A stretch of DNA of 53,235 nucleotides from Bacteroidota bacterium (lineage in GTDB: Bacteria > Bacteroidota > Bacteroidia > B-17B0 > Aurantibacillaceae). The stretch is from contig JABDDQ010000007.1 in NCBI GenBank assembly GCA_013287545.1, positions 1-53,235 of the forward strand, given 5' to 3'. The position numbers were made by a program, and so were the translations under genes. The first letter of the stretch is position 1. Each line of letters opens with the position of its first letter. Under the pieces are notes generated by a model. That model was given only the letters and a program-made list of their open reading frames with translations. It was not told the origin of the DNA and made no database searches. Of this stretch, positions 9,247 through 25,848 are shown in pieces.

Positions 9247-11949
9247 TTATTTCTTAGTTTTTGCTGGTGTCTTTTTAGATTTTTTTTGTTTTTCAAACAA
9301 GGTTCCACTTTTAGTCATTTCTTCATACATTTTAAAAAGATACTCTAAACGCTCGGTGTCTGAAGTAAATGGTTGCAATCGGTAACATTGCTCTACGGCA
9401 CGGTCAAGTTCTTCGTGGACTTGTTTTAAACCTTTTGGCATTTTATCGGGGTCGTAAAGTTGTGCCATTGTTTTTTCAGGGTGTTTGGCTCGTTCATCTA
9501 AAATGGCAAACACATACAAGTTTAAATTTTCTTTTTGTTTGAGTGTGATGTCAGGGAATGGAAAAGTATTGTAACACAACTTTGCTGAATATCTATAATC
9601 TGTTTTTAATTTGCCGCCAACAGCATTTAACCAAACCATGTGCATTTTGGAATGGATAATTCCGAAAAGCCAAGGCTGAGACGAACCTACAACCATTGTA
9701 GAATCACTTGCCTTGTAATCTGAACTGAAATACCCCATAGGAATGTATTCCCTTTCTTCTGATGAATGCCTGGGAATGACAATAAAATCAGTATTAGGAG
9801 GCTGAGTAATTTGAGCAAACAAATGCGGATTTTTTGCTAATTGCGGTCTTGAGGATTTTATTCGCTCCTTGTAAACTAAATCTACTCGTTGTTTTGTATT
9901 AGGTAATTTTTCTAATTCTTGATTAGATATGTTTTCCAACCAAAGACAAAATCGTTTTTTTCCGTTCAAAAATTCGTGTGCAGAAATTAACTCTTTTATC
10001 CATTTTGCTGCATTAGGCTCATTCAGTAAAAATTGATTTTTTTCTTCTTCTGTAAAAAGCAAATGCCCTCCGTCTGCAGGCATGTTTCCAAAATTCATTT
10101 CTGGCAATTTAGATAATGGTTTATTTAAACTATCAATGTAAATGTTGTTGTTATCTAAAAGGTAACCATTTATGTTTTTTGCATCTTTCCGAAAGTTTCC
10201 AATGAACAAATATTTTGCTTTTGAGCTTTTATTTCTCAAACCCAAAATAATAACTGTAACACCAGCATTGCCTTTGGCATTGTTTGTCCATTTAAATGAT
10301 TGATATGCAAAACCAATTTCAATATTTTCATTTAAAATTCGTGGCCATGTTAATGAAACTAAGAGACCTTGACAAACAGAGTTTGTAGAAACAAAAGCTA
10401 ATTGTGCATTTCGTCCATCAATGTATTTGGCTCCTTTGCAAAACCAAATAGAAACGTAGTCCAAACTTTTGTAGTCATTACGAAAAACAGATTTCATATC
10501 GTCTTTTTGCTCTTCGTCTTGGTTCCTACTTCCTAAATAAGGCGGATTGCCTATAATGTAAACTTCGTCATCAATTCCAATCGGACAAATCCTTTCCCAA
10601 TCTAAGCGGGCAGCATTTCCTTGAACAATTTTACCCGCTTGCTTTAATGGTAGAATCGGCTTTGAACGTCCATAATCAAATAGAATTTCTTCAAACACTT
10701 TGTTCATTTGGTGTTCTGCTAACCAAAGTGATAATATCGCCATTTCATGAGCAAAATCGTCCAACTCTATTCCATAAAATTGTGATAGTTGTATGGAAGT
10801 AAACTCCATAGCAGGGGTTGGACTAAGGTCAATAATGCGTTGCAGGATTTTTATTTCTAACAAACGAATTTCTTTGTAAGTAATAATCAAAAAATTTCCG
10901 CTACCGCAAGCAGGGTCAAAGAATTTTATTTTTGCAATGCGGTTTATCAATTTTCGTAATTGCGGAATGGTTTTGCAGTTTTCAAATTCTTCGTATAATA
11001 CATCTAAAAACAAAGGTTTGATGAGTTTCTGAATGTTGGGTACACTGGTGTAGTGCATTCCTAAATCGCTTCGGTATTCAGGTATTACCACTGCCTGAAT
11101 CATAGAACCGAAAATGTCAGGATTAATATCTCTCCAATTCAGTTCGCCCAACTCAATCAATATTTTTCGGGCTTTTGCTCTAAAAACAGGCGAAGCAATT
11201 GCATCACGAAACAGACCACCGTTCACATAAGGAAATTGTGCAAAATGTGCTGGAAAACCTTTTGCACTTTCTGTATTCAAACGTTTAAAAAGTCTGTCAA
11301 GAAATTCGTGTGTATCACTTCCGCTCTCGTTGGTATGCTGATATAAGGTGTTCGTAAAAATGCTGTCACCTTCAAAAATTTCGGTATCTTCTGCAAAAAA
11401 ACAGAATAATATTCGGGACAGGAAAATATTCAGACTATGAATACTATCTTTTGAGTTGTAGATGCCGTGATTTTTGGTTACTAACTCATCATATAATATT
11501 GCCATTTTATAGGCAGCATTTCTGTCGGCTTCATTGTCATTAGTGGAATGGTATACTTCGCTCCCCGCAAGCGGTAAAAAGAAAGCGTAATGATTAGGCA
11601 AATCATGAATAGAAATATCTAAATTTTTGCCTAATTTAAGGTCTTTAGCTACTAAGCCTTTATAGTCAGTAAGAATTACAAAACGAGGAGAATGTTTTAA
11701 AATATGTTCATCTTTTGCAACGCTTTCAATAGCACTCAATAGTTTATCGGATTTTTCTTCTCTAAAAAATACTTTCTTTTTGTATAGTATTTCTCCTTCA
11801 ACTTTTGAAAGATTGAAGTCTCCGCTCTTCAATCGTGTAATAGAGGCTTTAGAAATGCCGTAAGCTAATAACAAATCATACAGAAAATCTTTCTTAGAGA
11901 AATTCTCAAATATTTTTTTTATATTGTTTTCTATTTCGAGGCTGTTCAT
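9247..11949 (-). CDS. MmeI-like class I adenine-specific DNA methyltransferase
   Basis: Encodes 900 residues. The SAM-binding motif I is FFDPACGSGNF (about 342-352) and the catalytic motif IV is GNPPY (about 466-470), typical of N6-adenine methyltransferases. The layout (about 200-residue N-terminal domain, helical region, methyltransferase core, target-recognition region, short C-terminal domain) is that of MmeI/type IIL enzymes. The N-terminal region aligns by eye with the MmeI nuclease domain and retains an E-x-K-like REEK, but I do not see the usual upstream aspartate at the right spacing, so this domain may be inactive. It is the first gene of a three-gene operon with a helicase and a GIY-YIG protein. 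It ends in a lysine-rich tail. Confidence 0.85.
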   Translation of the reverse strand: MNSLEIENNIKKIFENFSKKDFLYDLLLAYGISKASITRLKSGDFNLSKVEGEILYKKKVFFREEKSDKLLSAIESVAKDEHILKHSPRFVILTDYKGLVAKDLKLGKNLDISIHDLPNHYAFFLPLAGSEVYHSTNDNEADRNAAYKMAILYDELVTKNHGIYNSKDSIHSLNIFLSRILFCFFAEDTEIFEGDSIFTNTLYQHTNESGSDTHEFLDRLFKRLNTESAKGFPAHFAQFPYVNGGLFRDAIASPVFRAKARKILIELGELNWRDINPDIFGSMIQAVVIPEYRSDLGMHYTSVPNIQKLIKPLFLDVLYEEFENCKTIPQLRKLINRIAKIKFFDPACGSGNFLIITYKEIRLLEIKILQRIIDLSPTPAMEFTSIQLSQFYGIELDDFAHEMAILSLWLAEHQMNKVFEEILFDYGRSKPILPLKQAGKIVQGNAARLDWERICPIGIDDEVYIIGNPPYLGSRNQDEEQKDDMKSVFRNDYKSLDYVSIWFCKGAKYIDGRNAQLAFVSTNSVCQGLLVSLTWPRILNENIEIGFAYQSFKWTNNAKGNAGVTVIILGLRNKSSKAKYLFIGNFRKDAKNINGYLLDNNNIYIDSLNKPLSKLPEMNFGNMPADGGHLLFTEEEKNQFLLNEPNAAKWIKELISAHEFLNGKKRFCLWLENISNQELEKLPNTKQRVDLVYKERIKSSRPQLAKNPHLFAQITQPPNTDFIVIPRHSSEEREYIPMGYFSSDYKASDSTMVVGSSQPWLFGIIHSKMHMVWLNAVGGKLKTDYRYSAKLCYNTFPFPDITLKQKENLNLYVFAILDERAKHPEKTMAQLYDPDKMPKGLKQVHEELDRAVEQCYRLQPFTSDTERLEYLFKMYEEMTKSGTLFEKQKKSKKTPAKTKK

Positions 11950-13605: not shown

Positions 13606-13621
13606 GCTATTTATTTTTACT

Positions 13622-13981
13622 ATGAATTCAGAAAAGATATACTCCATAACACCTGACCGTAAATTTATTTCCCTGAAAGATGGTAAGGTTAGATTAATTG
13701 GGTCAAATAATGAGCTTGGGAAGCGATATACGAAAGACGGCACATGTCTCTTAATCAAATGTGTTGAATTTGATTTTTATCAGAATGGCAGTAAAGACCG
13801 ATTCTTTTTTGAAGATGACGAACTTGTTTACTATTTTATTTCGATTGACAGAGGCGGATGGTTGAATGATTTACTCATGGATGCTATCAACCTGGAGTTT
13901 TTTACACAGGATAATTTCATTACGACCATTTTAGAAGGATTTGTGCTTCACGAGATGGGCTTTACTGCTGACGGGCAGTAA
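13622..13981 (+). CDS. Hypothetical protein, distant paralogue of the next gene's product
   Basis: Encodes 119 residues from the ATG at 13622; an in-frame TTG at 13604 lies in the terminator T tract and is rejected. No known domain is recognised. By eye it shares layout with the 14078 product: a central DRFFFEDDEL versus DEFFFNQYGL, and a C-terminal FF-rich helix ending in LHEMGFT versus FKELGFT. The two probably arose by duplication. The region before the start has GCTATTTAT, also seen before the next gene. Confidence 0.65.
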   Translation: MNSEKIYSITPDRKFISLKDGKVRLIGSNNELGKRYTKDGTCLLIKCVEFDFYQNGSKDRFFFEDDELVYYFISIDRGGWLNDLLMDAINLEFFTQDNFITTILEGFVLHEMGFTADGQ

Positions 13982-14077
13982 TATAATTACTGGCAAGTAC
14001 ACCATTAAAGAGATGGGTTTTTAATTTGAACCGAAACGTACTTTTTCATTTTTTTCTGCTATTTATAAATAAAGCTT

Positions 14078-14464
14078 ATGAAAAAAATACCCATCGACAT
14101 TTTAAAAACCCATCTTGACCAGCATGGTAACATATTCTTATTGGATAAAGATGAACGCCTTACCTTGGCTTGCACTATTAAACATGGCTCTACAATTGAT
14201 GTAGAAAATCTAAAATCAAAACCAGTAACCAGAGTAACCATTTTTACTGCCAACGGTTTGGAGGATGAGTTTTTCTTTAACCAATATGGCCTGCTGTTAT
14301 TTCATCATTTACAATCCCAGCACATTACACCCAATCTGAGCAAGGTTTATCTACATTACTTCTTAGATGTAGAAAACCTATGCCCAGAATCCTTTTTTCT
14401 TTATGTTTTAAATCAATATTTCAAAGAACTGGGATTCACGTTTCCTGTGCCATCCAAAATTTAA
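14078..14464 (+). CDS. Hypothetical protein, distant paralogue of the preceding gene's product
   Basis: Encodes 128 residues with no recognised domain. It shares a central D-x-FFF segment and a C-terminal ELGFT ending with the 13622 product (see that entry). The upstream sequence has two T-rich tracts and GCTATTTATAAATAAAG directly before the ATG. This is similar in layout to, but not the same as, the TATAAT cassette used by the genes further right. It is followed by a 390-bp structured non-coding region. Confidence 0.6.
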   Translation: MKKIPIDILKTHLDQHGNIFLLDKDERLTLACTIKHGSTIDVENLKSKPVTRVTIFTANGLEDEFFFNQYGLLLFHHLQSQHITPNLSKVYLHYFLDVENLCPESFFLYVLNQYFKELGFTFPVPSKI

Positions 14465-14495
14465 AATAAGGCTGTTTAAATGCGTTATTTCAAAT

Positions 14496-14528
14496 CTTAT
14501 AGGTTCGTGTATCAGAAAAAAAGAATTG
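14496..14528 (-). promoter_or_regulatory. Start-associated cassette, orphan minus-strand copy
   Basis: Read on the minus strand: AATTC, T8, 14 nt ending in GAACC, then TATAAG. It matches the cassette before eight island genes, but no minus-strand gene begins downstream of it. It would drive an RNA antisense to the 14078 gene. Confidence 0.5.
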
Positions 14529-14545
14529 CGTTTAATTGCCACAGA

Positions 14546-14597
14546 AATAAGCCGATAAATTACCACTGTTTAGAGGGCTAATTAATCGGCCTATTTT
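14546..14597. repeat. Large imperfect inverted repeat
   Basis: The arms are 14546-14562 and 14581-14597 (17 bp each, two mismatches, core GCCGAT/ATCGGC) around an 18-nt loop. The first iteron-like repeat overlaps the loop and right arm. No T tract follows, so a simple terminator is unlikely. Confidence 0.55.
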
Positions 14598-14645
14598 AGG
14601 AGCCTTATTAGCGCACTTATTTTACGCTTAGAGGCCTTAATTAGT
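14571..14645 (+). repeat. Three iteron-like direct repeats
   Basis: Imperfect copies of TTAGAGGCCTTAATTAG occur at 14571-14587, 14597-14612 and 14629-14645, spaced 26 and 32 bp apart. Each has a central AGGCCT or GAGCCT core followed by TTA/ATTA. Such repeats are typical of initiator-protein binding sites. Confidence 0.45.
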
Positions 14646-14855
14646 AAGCACCTTGTCCAGATAGGCACGAATTTTATTTCCTAAAAAATAGGGAGAGATT
14701 GATGAACCTTAACGTTAACATCCAATGACCTTATACTGCACGGTGCGCAATACCTGCTTTAGCAAAAAACAAAACACAACATTCAAAAAACACGCAAAAG
14801 GGAGAGAAGGGTAACGTTATAAAACAAAATCTCGCCTATTTACTTTAAAAAAACT

Positions 14856-15095
14856 ATGGATACAAAAGATACAGGACAACGAAGCTTCGTTCAATATTTA
14901 TTGCCAGATAATCGACTTTATGTTGATTTTCAAACCCTTATTTTAATTACTGGCACTAGTAACAAAACCGAATTGTTTAGGCTGCTAGAAAAGCTCGGAA
15001 ATAACTTCCCATTTACTATGTATAGGAACCGCAAATTATTTTTATCGGAAATGGCCATAAAATTTTGGCAAATCTATAAAGAGCATGTGCGTTAA
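14856..15095 (+). CDS. Small hypothetical protein
   Basis: Encodes 79 residues. The composition (mixed alpha/beta, basic C-terminal half with NRKLFLSEMAIKFWQIY) would fit a small DNA-binding or excisionase-like protein, but no motif is decisive. It has no start-associated cassette, unlike the genes to its right. It overlaps the end of the convergent gene at 15092 by 4 bp. Its position beside the structured region at 14.5-14.8 kb makes a role at that site conceivable, but that is inference. Confidence 0.55.
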   Translation: MDTKDTGQRSFVQYLLPDNRLYVDFQTLILITGTSNKTELFRLLEKLGNNFPFTMYRNRKLFLSEMAIKFWQIYKEHVR

Positions 15096-15427
15096 TAAAT
15101 GTCAATCCAGTCATCATCTTCTTTTTCATCATCTGGCTTTTCAAGTCGTTTAATTTCCTGCCTTATTTGATGCTCAATATTCTTTCCGTCCTCCAGGAAT
15201 TCCCTTCTAAATGCAGGTGGGAATAGATATTTATTTACTACTGTTTCAAAGAACATCCAGTAAATAATCACAAACCTTATAAAAGGAAAACTCAAGCCAT
15301 ATTTATTTATGCCTATTGCAATGGCATAAAAGGAATGGATTATCCGTGCGCCATTCTGCGTAAATAGCATCGTGTTTACAAAGACAAAGCAGGGCAACAA
15401 TATTTTAAGCCAGGTCAATTTATTCAT
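15092..15427 (-). CDS. Small predicted membrane protein
   Basis: Encodes 111 residues from the ATG at 15427; a TTG start 15 bp upstream is less likely. The N-terminal half has two hydrophobic stretches (about 6-24 and 42-62), the second ending in a WMFFETVV segment. The C-terminal tail is charged and very acidic at its end (KPDDEKEDDDW). Function is unknown. It is expressed from the minus-strand start-associated cassette at 15461-15494, which is shared back to back with the cassette of the divergent gene at 15536. Confidence 0.6.
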   Translation of the reverse strand: MNKLTWLKILLPCFVFVNTMLFTQNGARIIHSFYAIAIGINKYGLSFPFIRFVIIYWMFFETVVNKYLFPPAFRREFLEDGKNIEHQIRQEIKRLEKPDDEKEDDDWIDIY

Positions 15428-15460
15428 GGATATACCAGCCAATATTGATTAGCCATTTTA

Positions 15461-15494
15461 ATTATAGGTTGGATTCGCAAAAAAAAAGAAATTC
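15461..15494 (-). promoter_or_regulatory. Start-associated cassette for the 15427 gene (minus strand)
   Basis: On the minus strand: GAATTTC, T9, 12 nt ending in CCAACC, then TATAAT (15466 to 15461). Its GAAATTC core (15488-15494) is shared with the divergent plus-strand copy, forming an A9-GAAATTC-T8 symmetrical centre. Confidence 0.65.
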
Positions 15495-15521
15495 TTTTTT
15501 TTAGAAAGTTGAACCTATAAG
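15488..15521 (+). promoter_or_regulatory. Start-associated cassette for the 15536 gene
   Basis: GAAATTC, T8 (15495-15502), 13 nt ending in GAACC, TATAAG (15516-15521), then 14 nt to the ATG. It is the mirror partner of the minus-strand copy at 15461-15494. Confidence 0.65.
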
Positions 15522-15535
15522 ATAAACAGTTCATC

Positions 15536-15877
15536 ATGGCAAAAAAAGCAATAGTAATATTTGATAACGGAGGCAAGACCTGCGATAGGTACACAGGAGT
15601 TATCACAAAAACAGGGGATGTGGTTGGCTTTAATGAAAGGCCGTTCCACCCTGCCTATGGCTTTGGGCAATACTGTTGGAATATCTGCGATAGAATGAAT
15701 ATAACGTACGGGCACGGCTGGCGCAATCACTTTTCTGAAAAGAAAATTCTGAAAACGGAATTGGCAAATTACCTGAATGAAGCAAAGAATAATCCTGAAT
15801 GGCTTGGCAAAGAGGTTGAATTAACAAGCCTTTCAGCAGATGCACAACAGTATGTAAATCAGATATTAAGCGAATAA
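15536..15877 (+). CDS. Hypothetical protein with IFDNGGKTCDRYTGV motif (mobile-element type)
   Basis: Encodes 113 residues. The N-terminal IFDNGGKTCDRYTGV pattern occurs in unannotated small proteins of phages and plasmids; no activity is known to me. The remainder is mixed alpha/beta. The gene has its own start-associated cassette 14 bp upstream and is followed 52 bp later by another small gene without a cassette, which may be co-transcribed. The name reflects the motif only. Confidence 0.65.
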   Translation: MAKKAIVIFDNGGKTCDRYTGVITKTGDVVGFNERPFHPAYGFGQYCWNICDRMNITYGHGWRNHFSEKKILKTELANYLNEAKNNPEWLGKEVELTSLSADAQQYVNQILSE

Positions 15878-15929
15878 AAGAGCTGATATAATATCAAATA
15901 CGGCACTTATAACAACTAATATATTAAAT

Positions 15930-16136
15930 ATGAAAACAGTAACCTGTAAAAGCGGAACCAAAGGCTGGCAAAATAAATTGCAAAATATATATTCTACGTA
16001 TGAAGAGTTTTTGTGCTACTGCGAGACCTATAATATTCATCAACGCCTGGGATTTAAGTCAGCCGAAAATTGTTGGAAACAGAACCCACTAGTGCGAGGC
16101 TCTGTGATACCAAGCGATTTAGAAGTAGTAAGATGA
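15930..16136 (+). CDS. Small hypothetical protein
   Basis: Encodes 68 residues, basic at the N-terminus, with YSTYEEFLCYCETYNIHQRLGF in the middle (tyrosine- and cysteine-rich). No domain is recognised. It has no cassette of its own and may be read from that of the 15536 gene. Its TGA stop overlaps the GAATTC start of the next cassette, which shows how tightly the array is packed. Confidence 0.55.
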   Translation: MKTVTCKSGTKGWQNKLQNIYSTYEEFLCYCETYNIHQRLGFKSAENCWKQNPLVRGSVIPSDLEVVR

Positions 16137-16167
16137 ATTCTTTTTTTTCTTACACCCAACCTATAAT
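16135..16167 (+). promoter_or_regulatory. Start-associated cassette for the 16181 gene
   Basis: GAATTC, T8 (16141-16148), 13 nt ending in CCAACC, TATAAT (16162-16167), then 13 nt to the ATG. Its first bases overlap the stop codon of the preceding gene. Confidence 0.65.
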
Positions 16168-16180
16168 ATAAACAAGCTCC

Positions 16181-16444
16181 ATGATAGAACCCGATTTGTA
16201 TTTAGAGTTGAGTTGCGGAATTAAGATTCCTGTTATTCAGGTTATAGATTCCGAAGGTTGCGAACTCAATATAGCTCCAGTTGCAACACTTAAACTATTA
16301 CAGAATAGTAGGGGTAATATTTATGTTGAAGAAGCGAAAGAAATTGATGAAAACATTTTCTTTTATGCAGACAAATTTGAGCGAAGTGAACTGATGCTAA
16401 TGGAAATAACGACAGCAACAGATATTGAAGTCCACTTTGCCTAA
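16181..16444 (+). CDS. Small hypothetical protein
   Basis: Encodes 87 acidic residues, apparently beta-rich (IKIPVIQVIDSEGCELNI). No known domain. It has its own start-associated cassette, and its TAA stop overlaps the AAATTC of the next cassette. It lies in the array of single small genes that make up the element backbone. Function is unknown. Confidence 0.55.
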   Translation: MIEPDLYLELSCGIKIPVIQVIDSEGCELNIAPVATLKLLQNSRGNIYVEEAKEIDENIFFYADKFERSELMLMEITTATDIEVHFA

Positions 16445-16475
16445 ATTCTTTTTTTTTCACTTCTCAACCTATAAT
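16443..16475 (+). promoter_or_regulatory. Start-associated cassette for the DUF2958 gene
   Basis: AAATTC, T9 (16449-16457), 12 nt ending in CAACC, TATAAT (16470-16475), then 12 nt to the ATG at 16488. Confidence 0.65.
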
Positions 16476-16487
16476 AATAAACAAAGC

Positions 16488-16832
16488 ATGAATCCGAAAA
16501 TCAAAAAGTTAATTCCAGAGCATATTCAAAAAGCATTCACCGAGCAAGGTGATACCAGCGAAAAATGTATGGCTGATGTGAAAATAATTTGCAAGCTCTT
16601 TAATCCAGTTGGAGCGGGTACTTGGTGGCTTTACGAAAACATAGAAGAAGATATATACATGGCGTTTTGTCTGTTAGATTCACCTCAATATGCAGAAATT
16701 GGCACTATTTCACTCGAAGAAATGGTAGCAGTCAGATTTCCAATGGGCTTATCAATAGAAAGAGATTTATATTTTGAACCAGGTGAAAAGACCTTGCAAC
16801 AAGTGTGGGATGAAATAAAAGGTAAAAACTAA
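16488..16832 (+). CDS. DUF2958 domain-containing protein
   Basis: Encodes 114 residues from the ATG at 16488. An in-frame upstream extension to 16425 would run through the promoter-like T tract and is rejected. The sequence follows the DUF2958 pattern: KLFNPVGAGTWWLYE, a FCLLD segment, EIGTISLEEM, then GLSIERDLYF. DUF2958 proteins are common on plasmids, conjugative elements and phages; their biochemical role is not established. The gene has its own start-associated cassette, and a lipoprotein gene follows 10 bp later, probably in the same transcript. Confidence 0.8.
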   Translation: MNPKIKKLIPEHIQKAFTEQGDTSEKCMADVKIICKLFNPVGAGTWWLYENIEEDIYMAFCLLDSPQYAEIGTISLEEMVAVRFPMGLSIERDLYFEPGEKTLQQVWDEIKGKN

Positions 16833-16842
16833 AACAACAATT

Positions 16843-17298
16843 ATGCGTCAAAATAAATTAGTCATTTTTATCATAAGCCTTGCGCTATGTAATTGCCAGC
16901 CCAAAGAAGTAAAGCAAAAGCAAGTTATAATAAAAGCAGCCCCTAACATGGAAATAGAAAAACCGTGTGCCAACCCTACATTAATATATGGTTCCAGCTT
17001 TGGCAACTTCTTCCAAGCTCTTTACAGAACAAACCAGTTTGAAACAATGCAGGCTTTCACATCGAATAAAACAAAAGCAAAATTCGGGAACCAGCTATTA
17101 CCCTATTATCAAAACGAGTTTAAATTTGATTATTCACTTGGTAAACTAACCAATTTAAGCTACAGAGGCGACACCGTTTTGCTCACGTATGCAAAGGCTT
17201 ACATATATGGCACGAGGCGGAAGGTTGTTATTCCTTGCCATGTAGAAAATGATTCGGTTAAAATTATTCTTAACAACCTTAGAAATCCGTTCGAGTAA
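16843..17298 (+). CDS. Predicted small lipoprotein
   Basis: Encodes 151 residues. The N-terminus is a lipoprotein signal peptide: RQNK, a hydrophobic core, and a lipobox ending in LCNC with the lipidated cysteine at about residue 19. The mature part has two cysteines and no recognised domain. No cassette precedes it; the 10-bp gap to the DUF2958 gene suggests co-transcription. A surface or entry-exclusion-like function is conceivable on a mobile element, but nothing in the sequence shows it. Confidence 0.6.
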   Translation: MRQNKLVIFIISLALCNCQPKEVKQKQVIIKAAPNMEIEKPCANPTLIYGSSFGNFFQALYRTNQFETMQAFTSNKTKAKFGNQLLPYYQNEFKFDYSLGKLTNLSYRGDTVLLTYAKAYIYGTRRKVVIPCHVENDSVKIILNNLRNPFE

Positions 17299-17330
17299 AA
17301 TTCTTTTTTTTCTAGAGTTCAACCTATAAT
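17298..17330 (+). promoter_or_regulatory. Start-associated cassette for the 17346 gene
   Basis: AAATTC, T8 (17304-17311), 13 nt ending in TCAACC, TATAAT (17325-17330), then 15 nt to the ATG. Its first base is the last base of the preceding stop codon. Confidence 0.65.
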
Positions 17331-17345
17331 AATAAATAAAGTATT

Positions 17346-17639
17346 ATGAAAAAGAAAGATTATGCCAGAGAGGTTGGAATGACAGCATCAATAATGGCTG
17401 ATTTCATCAGTGAACAACTCTATACCAAAATGAAAAGTAAGGATATGGCTTATATCGCAACCCATGAACAGATTGCAAGCTGGGCAATTGAATTTGTAGA
17501 TAAGCATCTTAAAACAAATTGGGAGGAAGTACTGGATGGAGGCTTAGAACCTCTGTCGATTGAATGCAAGAATAGAAGCATTATTTGCTGGGACGATTGT
17601 GTAATCGACTATGCCTTTTTTAAGCTGGAGCAACTATGA
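17346..17639 (+). CDS. Small hypothetical protein
   Basis: Encodes 97 residues, mostly helical, with tryptophans and cysteines near the end (SIECKNRSIICWDDC). No domain is recognised. It has its own cassette and overlaps the next start codon by 4 bp (ATGA type), indicating translational coupling with the membrane protein at 17636. Confidence 0.55.
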   Translation: MKKKDYAREVGMTASIMADFISEQLYTKMKSKDMAYIATHEQIASWAIEFVDKHLKTNWEEVLDGGLEPLSIECKNRSIICWDDCVIDYAFFKLEQL

Positions 17640-17917
17640 GTAAGCAGCAAAGTAAACTAAGTAAATTACTTAAAGGTATTGTTTTGTATGCCACGTTCAA
17701 TATTGTATTTGATAAAATTGACGGGGCGGATGGATTGCATAAGCTTCAAAAAAATGTAGCTTTATTTTTAGACTTTTTGCCAACCGACCTTGCCAGCATT
17801 ATTGCAACGCTTATTGAACTGGCGTTTGATATTGGGTTACTCTATTGCTTTATCAGTGGAATGTATCGGATATGCACCTTTAATAAAATCATTCTAGAGT
17901 ACGAAGGCCATAAGTAA
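17636..17917 (+). CDS. Small predicted membrane protein
   Basis: Encodes 93 residues. It has a hydrophobic stretch at about residues 52-75 (a single membrane helix or hairpin) and an amphipathic N-terminal third. Its start overlaps the stop of the 17346 gene, so the two are made together. Function is unknown. Confidence 0.55.
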   Translation: MSKQQSKLSKLLKGIVLYATFNIVFDKIDGADGLHKLQKNVALFLDFLPTDLASIIATLIELAFDIGLLYCFISGMYRICTFNKIILEYEGHK

Positions 17918-17950
17918 AAATTCTTTTTTTTCTGAAAGCCAACCTATAAT
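17918..17950 (+). promoter_or_regulatory. Start-associated cassette for the 17963 gene
   Basis: AAATTC, T8 (17924-17931), 13 nt ending in CCAACC, TATAAT (17945-17950), then 12 nt to the ATG. Confidence 0.65.
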
Positions 17951-17962
17951 TAAAAATGAGTT

Positions 17963-18466
17963 ATGGATTTCAAAATAAAAAATGAAGAAGAGATAAAATA
18001 CCCAGGCATTAACAATCAACTTTGGTTAATGCTTGTGAGGGTAAATGGTTCTTACGGCGTAGAGACTAATACTCGCTATGAATCATTAGGTAGAAAAATT
18101 GCGCCAACAGAAAAAGTTGCAAGGCGTATGTTTGAGGATGTTAGTAATAAATTAAATGAGTTAGGAGACTTACATACGGCAACTGATTTATTAGACAGAG
18201 CATTTGCTATGCCAACTATTAATGAGATGATGTTTATTATTATAGCCAGCTATTCAAATATAAAATTTCCTGACTTGTGTAGAATGAAGAAACAATTTTC
18301 ATATAAGACCTTTCCGCCACATGAAGATATGATTTTCGAGAACAATGAGTTTGGTTCTCGCATTCAAGTGATTTTTCCGAACAGAGAAAATTCTATTGGC
18401 GCTTGGATTAGTGCCCCTGAAGCACTTAAATACGAATTTCAATTCAATGATAAATACTTGAAGTAG
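17963..18466 (+). CDS. Hypothetical protein
   Basis: Encodes 167 residues with no recognised domain. It has two stretches that look helical (about 50-80) and a C-terminal beta-rich part (IQVIFPNRENSIGAWIS). It is preceded by its own start-associated cassette and followed by that of the recombinase gene. It belongs to the small-gene backbone of the element. Function is unknown. Confidence 0.55.
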   Translation: MDFKIKNEEEIKYPGINNQLWLMLVRVNGSYGVETNTRYESLGRKIAPTEKVARRMFEDVSNKLNELGDLHTATDLLDRAFAMPTINEMMFIIIASYSNIKFPDLCRMKKQFSYKTFPPHEDMIFENNEFGSRIQVIFPNRENSIGAWISAPEALKYEFQFNDKYLK

Positions 18467-18499
18467 TTTTTCTTTTTTTTTCAAAGGCCAACCTATAAT
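18467..18499 (+). promoter_or_regulatory. Start-associated cassette for the serine recombinase gene
   Basis: TTTTTC replaces the AAATTC box; then T9 (18473-18481), 12 nt ending in CCAACC, TATAAT (18494-18499), and 14 nt to the ATG at 18514. Confidence 0.6.
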
Positions 18500-18513
18500 A
18501 TAAAAGAAAGCCC

Positions 18514-19161
18514 ATGAAAAAAATAGTGTACTACATCCGTTGCTCTACAATGGAGCAGAACCCAAACCTACAAATTAAAGATTTGGATAGTATTTGCGAT
18601 GTGCCACATGATATTTATAAAGAGAATGAATCTGCTTGGGCAGATAATGTAATACGGCCAGAGTTTAATAAGATACTCGCTCTAATTAAGAAAAGAAAAA
18701 TCACAGACTTATATGTGTGGGATTTAGATAGAGCTTATCGCAACAGGAAGCGATTGCAAGAATTTTTTGTTCTGTGCAAAACGTACAACTGCAAAATTCA
18801 CAGCTACCGACAAAAGTGGCTTGAAAGTATAAACAGCATCCCAGCTCCCTTTGATGAAATTGTACAAGATATGCTGATAAACATTTTTGGATGGATTGCA
18901 GAGGAGGAAAGTAGTAAGCGGAGCGAGCGCATAAAATTGGCCATCAAAAAAAGTGATAAGGGTACTTTCAGCTACAAAGGAAACAAGTGGGGCAAAAAAT
19001 CTTTGCCACAACAGACCGTTAACCAAATTCTTGAACTTCATAAGCAAGGGAAGAGCATCCGACAAATTGCAAGCGAGGTTACTTTCTTTGACAAGAACCG
19101 AAATGAGAAGAAAGTTAGTAAATCTGCTGTCCACAAATTAGTATCACAAATGAGCCCTTGA
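18514..19161 (+). CDS. Serine recombinase (resolvase/invertase family)
   Basis: Encodes 215 residues. The catalytic domain starts with YYIRCSTMEQN: Arg9 and the nucleophile Ser11 are in place. LYVWDLDRAYRNRKRLQEFF supplies the conserved D-x-x-R region, followed by the EEESSKRSERIK helix. The C-terminal region (about 165-213) is a helix-turn-helix (ILELHKQGKSIRQIASE) as in resolvases. The length is that of small resolvases and invertases, not of large serine integrases. It probably resolves multimers or inverts a segment of the element. It is controlled by the same start-associated cassette as the neighbouring backbone genes. Confidence 0.9.
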   Translation: MKKIVYYIRCSTMEQNPNLQIKDLDSICDVPHDIYKENESAWADNVIRPEFNKILALIKKRKITDLYVWDLDRAYRNRKRLQEFFVLCKTYNCKIHSYRQKWLESINSIPAPFDEIVQDMLINIFGWIAEEESSKRSERIKLAIKKSDKGTFSYKGNKWGKKSLPQQTVNQILELHKQGKSIRQIASEVTFFDKNRNEKKVSKSAVHKLVSQMSP

Positions 19162-19438
19162 AAGCACCCTTTTTTTTGATACCACCTTCGTTTTTTGCTA
19201 TGTCCATTTCTGCTATGAGATATGGACAAACAAATCCTCTCCTTTGTCAAGAACAAAAACAGTTTTATTGTTCTTTGACATCTCGCACAGGATTTGCATC
19301 AATGAGGCTGATAATTATTTTGTTTAAGCTTAAAAGAAAATACGTGTGAAAAACAGAATAGAAAATATATGCCATGAAACGCTAGTAAAATCAATGGGTT
19401 ATAAAATAAATTTATGGAATAGTTCTCTTTTTTGAAAC

Positions 19439-19462
19439 TTTTTTCACTTTTTTTCGTATAAG
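19439..19462 (+). promoter_or_regulatory. Degenerate start-associated cassette
   Basis: T6 (19439-19444), 12 nt, then TATAAG (19457-19462) followed by ATATTAAAC. Spacing matches the eight clear copies, but the AAATTC and AACC boxes are missing. It is followed by only tiny reading frames (ATG at 19478 with five codons; ATG at 19511 with 23 codons). Confidence 0.35.
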
Positions 19463-19818
19463 ATATTAAACACAACTATGAAACACGTTACTTAGAAATG
19501 ATATAGTATAATGGCAAAGAAAAGGCACAGCCCTTTTTATGGTCTTATCAATAGCAAACAAATCCTTGTTGTTGAACAGTAGTAAGACTCTTTGTTAATC
19601 TCTGGCAATTCTTGTCAGACTAAGGATTTAAAAACAAAAAAACTTTATGGCGAACTGAGCATTAACTGCTTTGAAATAATTATGTCCGTTTCAAATCAGT
19701 GCAGATGCCCTGTGGTTTTTTAGCTTTTAAAAGAAGGCGTGGAGAAATATTGTGTTTAATTAAAAAAGTAAAATGAAAATAAATTGTAACAGCCCTCCTT
19801 AGTAAGAGGTATAAAAAA

Positions 19819-19848
19819 CAAAAGCACTGGTTACCGCCAGTGCCTTTG
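19819..19848. terminator. Strong hairpin, probable terminator
   Basis: CAAAAGCACTGG and CCAGTGCCTTTG pair over 12 bp (one mismatch) around TTACCG. On the minus strand the stem is followed by TTTTGTTTTTT, a good terminator tail; on the plus strand the tail is weak (CTTTG). It lies directly before the ATPase gene, so it could also act as an attenuator. Confidence 0.5.
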
Positions 19849-19889
19849 TAGTGTCAATCATCATTGAAAAACAACTATATGAAAAAACT

Positions 19890-21272
19890 ATGTACAAATA
19901 TAATCAAAACTACAATAAAGAGCTAAACAGGTTCAACATAAAACTGTATCTCTCCGAGAAAAAAATTCTGGAGCATTATTTAAACGGAACAGAAATAAAC
20001 GAGGGTACTCAAATGTTTATAACCCCCTCTGGCACAAGCAACCTTATTAAAGGAACCTTTAAGAAAAGCACTGAACTTCGAGAGCTGGTATTTGTGCCTG
20101 AAAATGAGAAGCATTCACCATTAGAGTTTGTTCAGTATGTTGCGAACCTAAAAGGGTTAAGCTATACCAAAACTTTACAACTCATTCGTAATGACTTCAA
20201 GTTAAATTTAAAGTTAAATGCAAATGTCGAGCTAGAAAGCTTTAGCGATGACCGTAAACATGCGATTGCCAACGGTATCCTGCAAGGCACATATAATCCA
20301 AGCAAACAATTACCAAGTGAAAACCAGGAAGGTGTTTTGTTTTTGAAAGGTGTAGAGTTGCTGGGAGTTGGCGGTATCTGTATGTTGATTGGCCAACCCA
20401 ACTATGGTAAAAGCAACGTATCAGAAATCATCTGCGCCAAATTCTGCAATCCGTCTATTGATGGATTGGGCTTCGAGTTTAAAAAACCAGAGGCGAGTAA
20501 TATAATGTATGTCGATATGGAGCGCAACGAGCGTTACTTGTATAGAGGTTGGCAAAAGCTTGAGGCTAAGTGCAGTGATGTTGACCCACCTTTAGATAAA
20601 AAGGTTACATTTTTGGGTTATAAAAACATTGCTAATAAACAACCCATGTACAATCGGTTGACCAGACTTGAAAGAGATGTATTGCTTAGAAAACCCAGTA
20701 TATTAATTATTGACGGAGTTGCCAAGCTAATTGATGACATAAACAACTTCAACGAATGCGTGGAATTTAACCGTTGGCTTTGTAATCTGACCGAGGAATA
20801 TAATCTGGCTGTCTTTATAACCATACATGCAAACCCAAGTGATATGAAAGCACAAGGGCATCTGGGCAGTGTGCTGATGCGTGAAGCAGAAAGTGTCCTT
20901 GCCCTAAAGTATGATAAAAGCAAAGGCAGTACCCAAAGATGTATAACTACCAACTTCCAACATGGTAAAGTGAGAGGCGACAGCGATAAAGTTGAAGCCT
21001 GGATTGAATGGGGTATAGAACAAAATTGCTTTGTTAGTTCCGAGAAAAAACCAAGTAGCTCAGATGCAAGCCCAGCAGAAACTTTGAAGCAGAATGTGAT
21101 AAAAGCATTTGAAGGCAAGGAGCGTTTAACCTATAAAGAACTGGGAAACCAAATGGCAAAAGTTACTGCCAATACCTACGAAACAGAAAGGAAGAAAATA
21201 AGTAAGCTGGTGGAACTGGAATATATAACGTTTAGCAATTCCTTATATGAACTACATCCATCTTTAAAATAG
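19890..21272 (+). CDS. RecA-fold replicative-type ATPase/helicase (RepA/AAA_25-like)
   Basis: Encodes 460 residues from the ATG at 19890. An in-frame GTG at 19851 touches the base of the upstream hairpin, so I prefer the later start. Walker A is GQPNYGKSN (about 168-176) and Walker B is ILIIDGVAKL (about 268-277), with a VFITIHANPS segment next, as in hexameric RecA-like helicases such as RepA. The N-terminal part resembles the zinc-finger region of primases in length but has no cysteines. The C-terminal 80 residues look like a winged helix. On plasmids and integrative elements such proteins unwind the origin. It lies between the recombinase and the integrase, which supports an element capable of autonomous replication after excision. 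Confidence 0.75.
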   Translation: MYKYNQNYNKELNRFNIKLYLSEKKILEHYLNGTEINEGTQMFITPSGTSNLIKGTFKKSTELRELVFVPENEKHSPLEFVQYVANLKGLSYTKTLQLIRNDFKLNLKLNANVELESFSDDRKHAIANGILQGTYNPSKQLPSENQEGVLFLKGVELLGVGGICMLIGQPNYGKSNVSEIICAKFCNPSIDGLGFEFKKPEASNIMYVDMERNERYLYRGWQKLEAKCSDVDPPLDKKVTFLGYKNIANKQPMYNRLTRLERDVLLRKPSILIIDGVAKLIDDINNFNECVEFNRWLCNLTEEYNLAVFITIHANPSDMKAQGHLGSVLMREAESVLALKYDKSKGSTQRCITTNFQHGKVRGDSDKVEAWIEWGIEQNCFVSSEKKPSSSDASPAETLKQNVIKAFEGKERLTYKELGNQMAKVTANTYETERKKISKLVELEYITFSNSLYELHPSLK

Positions 21273-21337
21273 GTATAATGGGTAAGGGGGTGGGTGGAGG
21301 TATATATATACCTCCATCCCCACCCACCCATATACCC
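21272..21337. repeat. Palindrome with G-quadruplex-forming arms
   Basis: A perfect 20-bp palindrome (21296-21315: GGAGG, TA repeats, CCTCC) sits inside longer imperfect arms (21272-21295 and 21316-21337). The minus strand of 21318-21337 has four G runs of three or four bases separated by 1, 1 and 5 nt, a canonical quadruplex motif; the plus-strand left arm (21280-21300) is also G-rich. No T tract follows. It lies directly after the ATPase stop codon. Confidence 0.7.
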
Positions 21338-21353
21338 TGAAGAAAAATACAGT

Positions 21354-21488
21354 ATGGAACATATAGTAAAAACAGATAATAAAAGTATAAGGTGTATAGG
21401 GGTGGCAAATGCCATTAAAAAAATAATTCAAGTGATACGAGTGAAAAACAGGTTTAAAATTCTTTTTATTTCAACATCCAACCTATAA
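21354..21488 (+). CDS. Possible 44-residue small protein
   Basis: An ATG-initiated frame encodes a basic peptide (SIRCIGVANAIKKIIQVIRV in the middle). Its last ten codons run through the start-associated cassette of the next gene, which makes coding by the whole frame doubtful. No domain is recognised. Confidence 0.25.
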   Translation: MEHIVKTDNKSIRCIGVANAIKKIIQVIRVKNRFKILFISTSNL

Positions 21489-21489
21489 G
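21457..21489 (+). promoter_or_regulatory. Start-associated cassette for the excisionase-like gene
   Basis: AAATTC, TTTTTATTT (T tract broken by one A), 12 nt ending in CCAACC, TATAAG (21484-21489), then 14 nt to the ATG at 21504. The excisionase-like gene and the integrase are therefore under the same control signal as the backbone genes. Confidence 0.65.
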
Positions 21490-21503: not shown

Positions 21504-21854
21504 ATGACTGATAAATTAATTGACATTCAAGAATTGATACCGCTTTTGGGCGATAAGGATATAAGAACCATTGAAGGGTGGTGTAGTAAAAACAATTTAC
21601 CAGTGATAAAACTAGGAAAGAAAAAATACACCGTATCTTATTTCTTAGACCACTTTATTGAAAACGAATTAAAAACATTTATTGATAAAAATTTTGCAAA
21701 CCCAGATGCAATAATGGATGCAGTTAAACAGGACAGCAAGGCGGAGCTATCAGAATTACTAAAAGCTCCCATTGAACAAAAGACGAAAAATAATTTCAAG
21801 GTAAAAGTGCATAGCAAAGAAGCGGAAAAATTTATAAACGAATTTAATGCTTAA
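21504..21854 (+). CDS. Excisionase-like helix-turn-helix protein
   Basis: Encodes 116 residues. The first 55 residues read as a MerR/Xis-type winged helix: LIDIQELIPLLGDKDIRTIEGWC, then NNLPVIKLGKKKYTV as the wing and a final helix. The C-terminal half is charged and helical. It precedes the integrase gene by 3 bp, the usual arrangement for a recombination directionality factor. The assignment as excisionase is based on this pairing and on the fold pattern, and it could instead be a regulator of the integrase. Confidence 0.65.
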   Translation: MTDKLIDIQELIPLLGDKDIRTIEGWCSKNNLPVIKLGKKKYTVSYFLDHFIENELKTFIDKNFANPDAIMDAVKQDSKAELSELLKAPIEQKTKNNFKVKVHSKEAEKFINEFNA

Positions 21855-21857
21855 TCT

Positions 21858-23177
21858 GTGAAGAAAGTCCCTGAGAAACATAAAGGTCAAGGCATATTTG
21901 TTCGTTGCTTAAAATGCAAATGGCAAGTAAAAGACGAATGTAAATTGACAGGCAAACATCTTTCAACTTGTAAGTACAAAGACAAACACAAATATGAATT
22001 ATTGGTTCATTTAGCTGAGGATAGACGTAGGCAGAAAATATTACATACAGAGAATTTTGATGAAGTCCTGATAGAAAACGTAAAATTCAGAGCTGAGATG
22101 AAGGCTAATAGAGGTAATAATGGCACACTTCAAACAAGAGAAAAAATAAAAACCAATTTGTTTGACCTCATAGTAGAGTACCTGGATAACTTAGATGGTA
22201 AAAATCCAATTATACATCTTAACATTCCTGTTGCAAAAAGGCACAGAACTAATATTGCGCTGATATTAAAAAGATTTGCCACCAGTTTAAGAGATAAAGG
22301 ATATAACTTGAAATACTTGGATGCTAAAGATGTAACCGATATAGAAGTAGATATATTCAATCGTTATGTTTTATCCCTTGACTTAGCCCATTCAACATAT
22401 AATGCGCATCTCGTTGGTTTAAAAACATTTTATAACTGGATAATTGATAAGAAGGATTATAAAATAAACAACCCCTTCAAACATACAAGCCTTCAATTTA
22501 ATACAGACAAGGAAGTTCAAATAATTACACAGAAAGAATTTAATTCTCTATTAGGCGTAGTAACCCCTGAAAATGGCTATATGTTTTTTAAGAACCCAAA
22601 TGCAAGGCAAAAAGGAAAATACATGTATAGAGATTATTTAGTCATGGCTTTCAAATTAGCCTTAGAAACGGGTTGTCGAAGGGAGGAATTGGTTGAATTA
22701 AAATGGAATTTTTTAAGGGTGTTGCCTGACGGAGCAGAATGCTTATATATAAATAACTTAAAGGTGAATAGAATAAAGACAAGCAAAGCACATGGTAAAT
22801 TTAAGCGACCTATTCCTATCACCAATAGTTTAAGAACCTTACTGAATGAAATGGGGCTTAATGAAAAAGCAGGAAAAGATGAGTATATAATAGAAAGACC
22901 GAAAGGGGTTTCCGCAATGAAGTTTGCTGAAAATATTTCTCGTGCATTCAACCACTATATAAAGTTGGTAGATACAGGGAATAGAAAAATTGAGTTTATG
23001 GATTTAAGAAAGACGTATATCACTTTCTTAACTTTAAAATTGGGTAACAAGGCCAAGATATTTACAGGTCATGCGAGCGATGATATTCTAATTGACAGTT
23101 ACTTGGCTAAGGAATATATTGCTGGAGACTTATCTAATTTCAACATGTTTGAAGGAAAGAAATCTGAAGCCATATGA
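21858..23177 (+). CDS. Tyrosine recombinase (integrase) with N-terminal cysteine cluster
   Basis: Encodes 439 residues from a GTG start, 3 bp after the excisionase-like gene. An N-terminal zinc-ribbon-like cluster (CLKCKW, a cysteine in DECKL, STCKYKDKHKY; about residues 15-45) is typical of a group of Bacteroidota integrases. A SAM-like core-binding domain follows at about 95-200. The catalytic domain has ETGCRREEL (ArgI, about 272), a lysine-containing beta-hairpin (INNLKVNRIK), MDLRKTY (ArgII, about 382; the usual His of HxxR is Met), GHASDD (His) and DSYL (nucleophilic Tyr about 10 residues later). It is the likely enzyme that inserted the island, probably at the nearby tRNA-Met gene. Confidence 0.9.
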   Translation: MKKVPEKHKGQGIFVRCLKCKWQVKDECKLTGKHLSTCKYKDKHKYELLVHLAEDRRRQKILHTENFDEVLIENVKFRAEMKANRGNNGTLQTREKIKTNLFDLIVEYLDNLDGKNPIIHLNIPVAKRHRTNIALILKRFATSLRDKGYNLKYLDAKDVTDIEVDIFNRYVLSLDLAHSTYNAHLVGLKTFYNWIIDKKDYKINNPFKHTSLQFNTDKEVQIITQKEFNSLLGVVTPENGYMFFKNPNARQKGKYMYRDYLVMAFKLALETGCRREELVELKWNFLRVLPDGAECLYINNLKVNRIKTSKAHGKFKRPIPITNSLRTLLNEMGLNEKAGKDEYIIERPKGVSAMKFAENISRAFNHYIKLVDTGNRKIEFMDLRKTYITFLTLKLGNKAKIFTGHASDDILIDSYLAKEYIAGDLSNFNMFEGKKSEAI

Positions 23178-23186
23178 CTCTTACAA

Positions 23187-24224
23187 TTAATTGTAATTAG
23201 CTTCTAATTGCTGCCTATCTGTTGTTTTCTTTCCATCACCTTCGTAATGCACTTGGCTATAATATGTCTTAATATTAATGTTATCTATATAACCAGTCGG
23301 AATATTTTTAATAAGATTGTACTTAGTAATTAGTTTTTTATTTTCATCTAACCCAACCTCTTTCTCCCAAGGTTTTCCAAGGTCAGATAGGGAGTTAAAA
23401 AACAAAAGTGTCTGCTCTTGAGTTGAAAGTTGCGCTCTCAATGTTTTTATATATTGATATTTATCAAAATAAGTCAAAAGCTCTTTTGGTTGGTCATCAA
23501 TATATTTTACTAATTGAAATAATTGACGAAAATAATGCCCCAACCTCGATTGGTGTCCTTCAAATGGGTTATAATCAAATTTTTCATCTGACTTAATTCG
23601 AGGTTGTGCTTGAGTAAATAAAGTAATTAAATTGGAAACAAAATCTGGGTTTTTTGCATCAGAATAATGTTTTAAGTTTTCTTTGATGGTTCTTTCAGAG
23701 TTAACACCAACCGCACCAAAAAAGAAACATAAGTATGAGATGTTGATTACTTCTGATTCTGCTAATTTATCCGTTCTCAAAGAGGCTGCCGCATTAACAA
23801 TTTCCAATGATTGATAAAATTCTCTTTGTAATGAAAGAAATATTTTTTTCCCAACCCTATCTTTAATTGTAATATCGTTGCTATTCTCCCTATGTATTTT
23901 AAGTAATTCAAAAAAGCGACTTTCAATTTGTCCTCTATCAAAATTTCTTTTTTGTTCTTGTTGTTCTATCTTGAAATTACTTTGTAGAGTATTAAAATTA
24001 TCACGCTGGTCATTTAAAGTTTGAATAAGAAGAAAAATATTGAGAATTGTTAAAATAGCCGTTGCAATACCGCCAACTAATACTCCGTAGTCAGCAAATA
24101 AATGGGTATCTATCGGTAGATTAATACTAAGTTTGGTTGTCTTGAATAAAAATAAAAGAAGTATTACAGTAGCAAAAACCACAGTAGCTCCAATTATAAT
24201 ATACGCACGTTTCTTGTAGTCCAT
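23187..24224 (-). CDS. putAbiC-like phage abortive infection membrane protein
   Basis: Encodes 345 residues. Two N-terminal membrane helices (about 7-27 and 46-68) are followed by a coiled-coil stretch and the conserved IESRFFELLKIHRENS (100-115). LGHYFRQLFQLVKYI at about 228-242 is the second signature of the putative AbiC abortive-infection family. Proteins of this family are thought to sense infection and stop growth of the cell; the mechanism is not known. The gene is downstream of, and on the same strand as, the RES-domain gene (151-bp gap), and converges with the integrase gene (9-bp gap between stop codons). It is cargo, as it lacks the start-associated cassette. Confidence 0.75.
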   Translation of the reverse strand: MDYKKRAYIIIGATVVFATVILLLFLFKTTKLSINLPIDTHLFADYGVLVGGIATAILTILNIFLLIQTLNDQRDNFNTLQSNFKIEQQEQKRNFDRGQIESRFFELLKIHRENSNDITIKDRVGKKIFLSLQREFYQSLEIVNAAASLRTDKLAESEVINISYLCFFFGAVGVNSERTIKENLKHYSDAKNPDFVSNLITLFTQAQPRIKSDEKFDYNPFEGHQSRLGHYFRQLFQLVKYIDDQPKELLTYFDKYQYIKTLRAQLSTQEQTLLFFNSLSDLGKPWEKEVGLDENKKLITKYNLIKNIPTGYIDNINIKTYYSQVHYEGDGKKTTDRQQLEANYN

Positions 24225-24375: not shown

Positions 24376-25323
24376 TTATATGGCCTTAGGTTTATAAAAT
24401 TCTTTTTTCCATGTAATAATTCCATTCTCAATTTTCTCCGCTTCATGGAGAACTCCATACGTAAAAGTCCCATTTTTAAAATCTATATTTCCACACAATA
24501 CTTCTATTGTATTTATTAGCTCCAATTTTTCTTCTACAGATTGAATAAATAAAGCTTGATTATCACCTTTATAATTCATTGCAACACTTGGATAATTGAG
24601 CCCATCAAATCTACTTGACTTGTATTGTTCTGCAATCAAGCTATTTGAAGTACGTAGCCTGCTCGCATAAAATGCACTGATTTTGTAATCATGCGAGCTC
24701 TTTATGTTATCTTTTGTAAATTGTTCTGAAAAAAATTGACACAATAAATTGTTAGCGTTTACAACATCCTCTTGTAATGAACCATTTATGATTAGTTTTT
24801 GAGTATCATTATAAGCATCCAAAATATCTTTTCTGAGTTGATGTAAAATTGGGCTATGAATAATACACGCTATATGTAAATCTGCTTTAAGTCTCCACTC
24901 TCCTATTGTTAAGGAAGCAACTTCAAGTTCTGGGTTTAATTTATATTTTAAATTTTGAATGACTTCAAATAACGCTAATCTTGCATTGGAAGCGCAATAA
25001 AATATTCGTTCGCCAATTTTATTTGCACGCCCATGTTCTATAATATGTTCTTTTTGAGGGGCAGCAATATCGCTTACTTTTTCAAAAGGAGTATTATTTA
25101 TATTTAATCTTGCTCTATATAATTTGTGTCCAGCAAGAATTTTAGTATCCACATATGGAATTACATAGAAATACTTATCAATTATTTTTTCTAATTGTTC
25201 GTCTGTAAAATCTGATAAATTAAACGCTTCTAATTCTGCGACATATTTTATTACATCAGCTGTCTTAGTAAATCTCTTTTCAAATTCTTTATGGGTATAA
25301 CTTTTATCCATTAAATTACTCAA
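24376..25323 (-). CDS. RES domain-containing protein
   Basis: Encodes 315 residues. An N-terminal helical region (about 1-55) precedes the RES domain: KLYRARL (Arg70/72), HGRANKIGERIFYCASNARLALFE split over 97-120 with Glu120, and NYPSVAM with the serine at about residue 250. All three signature residues are present. No Xre-type antitoxin gene is adjacent. The putAbiC gene lies 151 bp downstream on the same strand, so the two may form one transcript. It is longer than classical RES toxins and resembles the 3725 product in layout, though the sequences are quite diverged. NAD+-consuming activity is a family-based inference. Confidence 0.75.
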   Translation of the reverse strand: MSNLMDKSYTHKEFEKRFTKTADVIKYVAELEAFNLSDFTDEQLEKIIDKYFYVIPYVDTKILAGHKLYRARLNINNTPFEKVSDIAAPQKEHIIEHGRANKIGERIFYCASNARLALFEVIQNLKYKLNPELEVASLTIGEWRLKADLHIACIIHSPILHQLRKDILDAYNDTQKLIINGSLQEDVVNANNLLCQFFSEQFTKDNIKSSHDYKISAFYASRLRTSNSLIAEQYKSSRFDGLNYPSVAMNYKGDNQALFIQSVEEKLELINTIEVLCGNIDFKNGTFTYGVLHEAEKIENGIITWKKEFYKPKAI

Positions 25324-25435: not shown

Positions 25436-25442
25436 CCTTCTG

Positions 25443-25516
25443 TGCTCCCACTTGGGCTCGAACCAAGGACCCTCAGATTATGAGTCTGATGCTCTAACCG
25501 ACTGAGCTATAGGAGC
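25443..25516 (-). tRNA. tRNA-Met (anticodon CAT)
   Basis: A complete cloverleaf is visible on the minus strand: acceptor pairs GCTCCTA/TGGGAGC, D arm with AGCTCAGTCGGTTAGAGC, anticodon loop CTCATAA (CAT, at 25480-25482), and T arm GGTTCGAGCCC. CCA is not fully encoded. It could be elongator tRNA-Met or an Ile tRNA with modified CAT, which the sequence alone does not decide. Its promoter is at 25531-25561. Confidence 0.9.
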
Positions 25517-25570
25517 AAAAATTAGAGGTGCAAAAATAGATATTCTGTGCCTTTATGCAAATTTATTTTG
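25477..25570 (-). repeat. 94-bp direct repeat, copy 1 (5' half and promoter of the intact tRNA)
   Basis: Identical at all 94 positions to 25744-25837. It runs from the edge of the anticodon loop through the 5' half of the tRNA and its promoter. It ends 9 bp upstream of the -33 box. Confidence 0.9.
25531..25561 (-). promoter_or_regulatory. Promoter of tRNA-Met
   Basis: On the minus strand: TTTG (25561-25558), 19 nt, then TATTTTTG (25538-25531), an exact match to the Bacteroidota TTTG-N19-TAnnTTTG promoter, 14 bp before the tRNA 5' end. Confidence 0.8.
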
Positions 25571-25743
25571 TGTATCTGAAAATTACCCAAAACTATAACC
25601 TCGCTTAAATAATTTTGGTGGGGTTATTTTTAATATAATAAAAATTATATCACATGGCTTTTACCTGCAAAAAACAGGCAAATAATTTGCTAAACTATTA
25701 AAAACTTAAGTAAAATAGGCTTGTTAGATGAAAAGGAGGTCTA

Positions 25744-25837
25744 ATTATGAGTCTGATGCTCTAACCGACTGAGCTATAGGAGCAAAAATTAGAGGTGCAA
25801 AAATAGATATTCTGTGCCTTTATGCAAATTTATTTTG
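25744..25837 (-). repeat. 94-bp direct repeat, copy 2: orphan tRNA 5' half with promoter
   Basis: Identical to 25477-25570. It contains tRNA positions 1 to about 39 (25744-25783) and the complete promoter (25798-25828) but no 3' half, so it cannot make a tRNA. It is most likely an integration scar (att site) or a partial duplication. Confidence 0.85.
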
Positions 25838-25848
25838 AGGTTAGAAAA

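Follow-up and report, generated by a model that had tools for sequence, protein, structure and literature searches.

Cassettes in the window

The window analyzed here is a 53,235-nt stretch of contig JABDDQ010000007.1, and all coordinates refer to this stretch as a whole. It harbors an integrative element of a Bacteroidota genome whose backbone genes are preceded by a short repeated sequence, the class I cassette. The cassette is directional: TTC is followed by a T tract and a variable spacer, then by AACC and TATAA. Nine copies were found, and TTC to the last A of TATAA spans 29 nt in all of them. The exact pattern yields five matches in the window, compared with 0.00 expected from dinucleotide shuffles. 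Seven copies lie on the plus strand, each followed by the ATG of the first gene named below.

15492-15520, plus strand: class I cassette leading gene 15536-15877
15462-15490, minus strand: class I cassette, divergent partner of the copy at 15492, leading a 10-codon open reading frame (ORF) and the membrane-protein gene 15427-15092 (minus strand)
16138-16166, plus strand: class I cassette leading gene 16181-16444
16446-16474, plus strand: class I cassette leading the DUF2958 gene 16488-16832 and the lipoprotein-like gene 16843-17298
17301-17329, plus strand: class I cassette leading genes 17346-17639 and 17636-17917
17921-17949, plus strand: class I cassette leading gene 17963-18466
18470-18498, plus strand: class I cassette leading the small serine recombinase gene 18514-19161
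21460-21488, plus strand: class I cassette, T5AT3 variant, leading gene 21504-21854 and the tyrosine integrase gene 21858-23177
14497-14525, minus strand: orphan class I cassette within the non-coding stretch 14465-14855, antisense to gene 14078-14464

An earlier note on this DNA had described a start-associated cassette before the seven plus-strand genes and before gene 15427. The repeat is real, and each of the seven genes is preceded by a copy. The T8-9 tract given there is interrupted at 21460 (T5AT3) and shortened at 14525 (T7). The gap of 12-15 nt claimed for gene 15427 is in fact 34 nt after TATAA, with an ORF of 10 codons (MANQYWLVYP, 15456-15424, minus strand) in between. This ORF starts at +5 after the TATAA of the minus-strand cassette and ends in a TGA that shares bases with the ATG of gene 15427 (ATGA); translational coupling of the two is possible. 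No ORF start was found behind the orphan copy (14525-14497, minus strand). Defense-type cargo surrounds the element, namely GmrSD-like (1602-3545), MmeI-type restriction-modification (9247-11949), putAbiC (23187-24224) and RES domain (24376-25323) genes. A scan of the whole window detected no class I cassette before these genes, in agreement with the absence before cargo genes that the earlier note had reported.

Restriction to the elements

A cassette at most 60 nt upstream was found for 34 of 102 element ORFs versus 1 of 182 host ORFs (p=3e-16), both sets being mechanical and including spurious ORFs. All matches in the carrier genomes lie within elements save one (C8:39700), which is located inside a longer ORF on the opposite strand. 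Among other Bacteroidota genomes, 3 of 394 contained one match each to the family pattern, all inside ORFs. A stricter pattern gave no match in any of 149 relatives searched. The motif is thus not equally frequent before host genes; equal frequency there is what the earlier note had named as fatal to a regulon. The note's claim that the cassette is element-specific and marks backbone genes rather than cargo is supported by comparison over six elements and hundreds of genomes.

Family of elements

The exact pattern was scanned across a genome collection of 84,980 species. Mostly single chance matches were obtained, together with clusters in two Bacteroidetes metagenome-assembled genomes (MAGs), RH-23may17-974 and RH-15aug16-189. 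A second cluster lies on contig C16 of the MAG to which the window belongs. Tracing a conserved small protein (alignment A2) revealed another element, in genome G114, which has the variant TGACCTATAA, as well as a single copy in G718. In total, 51 in-register copies are known from six elements in five MAGs. The 29-nt register is kept throughout, and 44 copies sit 4-49 nt upstream of an ORF start. The family consensus is TTCTTTTTT...RACCTATAA. Because RACCTAT and a T-rich start had been required in the search, their conservation within the 51 copies is not independent evidence. C occupies cassette position 3 in 47/51 copies. The start (A)AATTC, previously proposed as a general feature, is reduced to TTC across the family. 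AACC holds for the window (A in 9/9 copies); in the relatives ACC is preceded by A or by G, depending on the element (G in 7/8 copies of G114). Outside the 29 bp the copies contain little information apart from A-richness, with A at position 34 in 43/51, and no separate conserved operator was found there across the 51 copies.

The elements share a syntenic core of partly conserved order. It comprises the left-arm proteins 13622 and 14078, the 14856 family, a convergent membrane protein, a divergent cassette pair and cassette-led genes, the latter encoding DUF2958, a lipoprotein, the 17346 and 17963 families and a serine recombinase (resolvase). Orthologous genes (DUF2958, 17346 family) carry the cassette in several elements. 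Cassette-led DUF2958 genes occur in the window, C16, G002 and G114 elements, the G114 member being assigned by similarity to the window gene; DUF2958 as such is widespread. A gene for ArdC (ArdcN and MPTase-PolyVal domains) follows directly behind a cassette in G002 (L066), and a DUF932 gene does so in G600 (L065). The window, C16 and G114 have tyrosine integrases close to tRNA-Met genes, and G002 has a putative one close to tRNA-Ser; those of C16 and G002 were assigned from position and weak similarity.

A module of resolvase and DUF2779 nuclease (L065 11212-13798 and L066) is shared by elements from two different MAGs at about 85% identity, which rises to as much as 100% near the start of the module, and the homology begins exactly at a cassette (L065 11212). 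Paralogous gene modules occur in G002. A short conserved stretch ending in CGTATAAGATA is located at 19417-19482 and in the C16 element (L022 9194-9260); in the window it lies in the 690-bp gap behind the resolvase.

A phage origin was rejected: the matches in IMG/VR were isolated, mostly within ORFs, and formed no clusters, and three element protein families had no viral relatives. The 17346 family had no relative in plasmids or phages, and the lipoprotein none in plasmids. The region 25442-25860 contains two copies, 267 bp apart (25477 and 25744), of the 5' half of the tRNA-Met together with about 40 bp of upstream sequence; at least 80 bp are identical. The 3' end of the tRNA, sought as an attachment site, is not repeated within the window, and in relatives of the genus this tRNA-Met is missing along with all sequence to the left of about 25850, so neither the left end nor an empty site could be defined.

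Probable promoter activity

Back-to-back divergent cassettes are present in the window, G002 and G114, 1, 12 and 10 nt apart, and lie between divergent transcripts. Almost nothing remains between the paired copies, so both transcripts must start within or just behind them. It is thereby strongly suggested from sequence that the cassette itself holds promoter activity. TCTT at cassette positions 2-5 and TA at position 25 are separated by 19 nt, which equals the geometry of the Bacteroidota sigma-A promoter. The boxes TCTT and TATAAT/G, however, fit neither the -33 TTTG nor the -7 TAnnTTTG. A sigma-A consensus within 150 nt was found for 0/37 class I genes versus 7/57 host ORFs. The contrast with TTTG-N19-TAnnTTTG drawn in the earlier note is therefore correct for the sequence and not for the spacing. 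The spacer sequence and the distance to the ATG differ between copies, but the 29-nt frame is constant, as expected of a polymerase or protein site. The divergent pairs favor the promoter proposed previously; for the element-encoded binding protein suggested with it, a candidate can be named.

Candidate regulator

14856-15095, plus strand: gene of a 79-aa winged-helix-like protein, candidate regulator, present in all six class I elements

The 14856 family is found in the six elements and in G137. An AlphaFold2 model of the protein (pLDDT 77) has the order beta-beta-helix-helix-beta-beta-helix. Many winged-helix DNA-binding proteins were listed by Foldseek, among them the RacA-DNA complex (TM 0.55/0.64, 2.2 A). 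The gene lies close to the divergent cassettes and is itself led by a class II motif (see below). Based on this position, this leader and the winged-helix-like model, the 14856 protein is the best candidate, and no more, for a regulator of the class I cassettes. The HTH_3 protein 12329 was rejected as regulator, being found only in the two elements of the window's MAG. Genes 14856-15095 and 15092-15427 converge with overlapping stop codons, likewise in G600 and G114. A cassette-driven membrane-protein gene would consequently read antisense into the regulator gene.

Second motif and left arm

The class II motif CTATTTAT, preceded by a T-rich stretch, leads left-arm genes of seven related elements and is weaker than class I. 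The ATG mostly follows 12-23 nt downstream.

13607-13614, plus strand: class II motif CTATTTAT before gene 13622-13981
14059-14066, plus strand: class II motif before gene 14078-14464
14836-14843, plus strand: class II motif, CTATTTAC, before the candidate regulator gene 14856
14465-14855: non-coding stretch separating genes 14078 and 14856, found at the corresponding place in related elements, with weakly conserved TTAATTAA-rich blocks
Class II sites in relatives: L021 10049 and 10743; L065 4544 and 5205; L067 277 and 700
Further class II sites in relatives: L083 11561 and 10447; L084 8739 and 9126; L082 9155

The motif precedes 12/102 element ORFs versus 2/182 host ORFs (p=1.3e-4, an optimistic value, as the motif was picked after inspection of these genes). 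The left-arm protein 13622 has a confidently predicted fold without a significant PDB match. The non-coding stretch is possibly a replication or transfer origin, or an RNA. Of the known RNA families, the tRNA alone exceeded its gathering score.

Interpretation

The cassette is probably the promoter of an element-private regulon in Bacteroidota integrative elements, its specificity probably being provided by an element-encoded factor. Many backbone genes or short operons have their own copy; the T-rich box TTCTTTTTT would sit at the -35/-30 position and RACCTATAA at the -10 position, with a very short leader behind. The driven genes (ArdC/DUF932-type, DUF2958, lipoprotein, small unknowns, resolvase and the xis-like/integrase operon) resemble early or establishment functions, and the class I genes may be switched on together upon cell entry or mobilization of the element. 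The element-encoded DNA-binding factor, with the 14856 protein as best candidate, would act directly on the promoter core.

Several observations weigh against this interpretation. In five copies the ATG follows TATAA by just 4 nt. The TAnnTTTG box is located at -12 to -5 in Flavobacterium psychrophilum (PMC9723704). With TA placed at -12, these ATGs would fall upstream of the standard sigma-A start site; either transcription begins closer than usual, or a simple promoter does not fully describe the cassette. Leaderless transcripts from position 34 would resolve these cases. No class I copies were found in G137, which possesses the winged-helix-like protein, and the Foldseek matches of the latter are weak (best E 0.2). 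A MobA-type relaxase (PF03432) and a TraG-type ATPase (PF19044) are absent from the five carrier genomes, some of which are incomplete; other relaxase families were not searched. A conjugative integrative element was rejected on these grounds, and establishment after conjugation is left without direct support.

An ordinary constitutive promoter would be read by host polymerase and primary sigma factor unaided, and the uniformity of the copies would reflect common descent, or copying with gene modules, instead of co-regulation. The -33/-7 geometry is the same as in host promoters, near-identical modules are common to elements, and one synteny breakpoint falls exactly at a cassette. Yet host genes lack the cassette, and its boxes do not fit TTTG and TAnnTTTG. 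Moreover, the exact 29-nt frame at unrelated genes, despite differing spacers, argues for maintenance by selection and not by copying alone, and this explanation is regarded as rather improbable. The element may instead have hijacked a host alternative sigma promoter that responds to a stress signal of the host. Sigma targets are asymmetric, as is the site, and Bacteroidota possess several extracytoplasmic function sigma factors (PMC9723704). A host regulon, however, would place the motif before host genes, and no such case was found in 394 genomes or in the carriers, which makes a hijacked promoter very unlikely.

Little credence is given to control of translation by a U-tract/RACCUAUAA leader bound by a protein or the ribosome. 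The cassette is close to the start codon (4 nt in five cases), and Bacteroidota do not use Shine-Dalgarno sequences (PMC6847099). The distance to the ATG ranges from 4 to 49 nt, however, the single strand has no consistent fold (DNA parameters), and back-to-back divergent copies leave no room for an upstream promoter. It is scarcely probable that the cassettes are recombination boundaries, repeats that let elements exchange gene modules, perhaps with help from the resolvase. Cassettes bound many genes, a homology block of two elements starts at one (L065 11212), and G002 has paralogous modules. Recombination would need neither the strong direction nor the start association nor the divergent pairs, and other breakpoints are not on cassettes.

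The private regulon may tentatively be extended to a program of two classes, a version that is doubtful at present. Class I promoters would need an element-encoded appropriator, possibly the 14856 protein, which redirects host polymerase to entry-phase genes, and class II CTATTTAT promoters would serve the regulator and the left-arm genes. Private promoters make the regulon of an uncharacterized element recognizable from sequence alone. A few dozen short genes are marked by the cassette as likely to act in the entry phase or against defense; where tested, most have no Pfam or PHROG name. The cassette also offers a test case for how a mobile element brings the unusual polymerase of Bacteroidota to read a promoter foreign to the host, and possibly an orthogonal promoter for Bacteroidota genetics.

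Comparison with known systems

The earlier note knew of no description of the cassette, and a literature search likewise gave no published one. The Bacteroidota sigma-A promoter TTTG-N19-TAnnTTTG (PMC9723704) has an equal box distance but different boxes, and the cassette adds a conserved RACC before its -10-like box. Frpo/ssi single-stranded leading-region promoters drive anti-restriction genes on entry and need a hairpin (PMC11541004). A single-strand promoter of this type was rejected, since DNA folding z-scores are near 0 in 5/7 copies and no consistent fold was found.

In pLS20-family plasmids, including Reg(p576), a repeated sequence before ardC revealed an establishment regulon (PMC8708921). 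Like the cassette, the establishment gene regulatory sequences EGeRS1 and EGeRS2 recur upstream of several operons that are unlinked within a mobile element, ardC/anti-restriction genes among them. EGeRS1 of the pLS20 family is 420-750 bp long, contains inverted repeats and lacks a constitutive promoter, whereas the cassette has a conserved core of 29 bp only. EGeRS2 relies on a separate operator (dual TTATCCC heptamers) and a ribbon-helix-helix repressor; neither was found for the cassette, and its candidate regulator is winged-helix-like. Unlike the pLS20 sequences, the cassette sits in Bacteroidota integrative elements, and their carriers gave no MobA relaxase or TraG matches. The start-associated sequences (SAS) of cluster K mycobacteriophages are short asymmetric repeats just upstream of many unrelated genes, mostly in one orientation and common to relatives (PMC3203893). 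SAS (GGGATAGGAGCCC), about half of them with inverted repeats (ESAS), has no sequence relation to the cassette (PMC3203893). The pLS20/p576 establishment promoters and the cluster K start-associated sequences are the closest analogues. Judged by sequence, the arrangement belongs to neither group; it resembles EGeRS in its presumed function and SAS in appearance.

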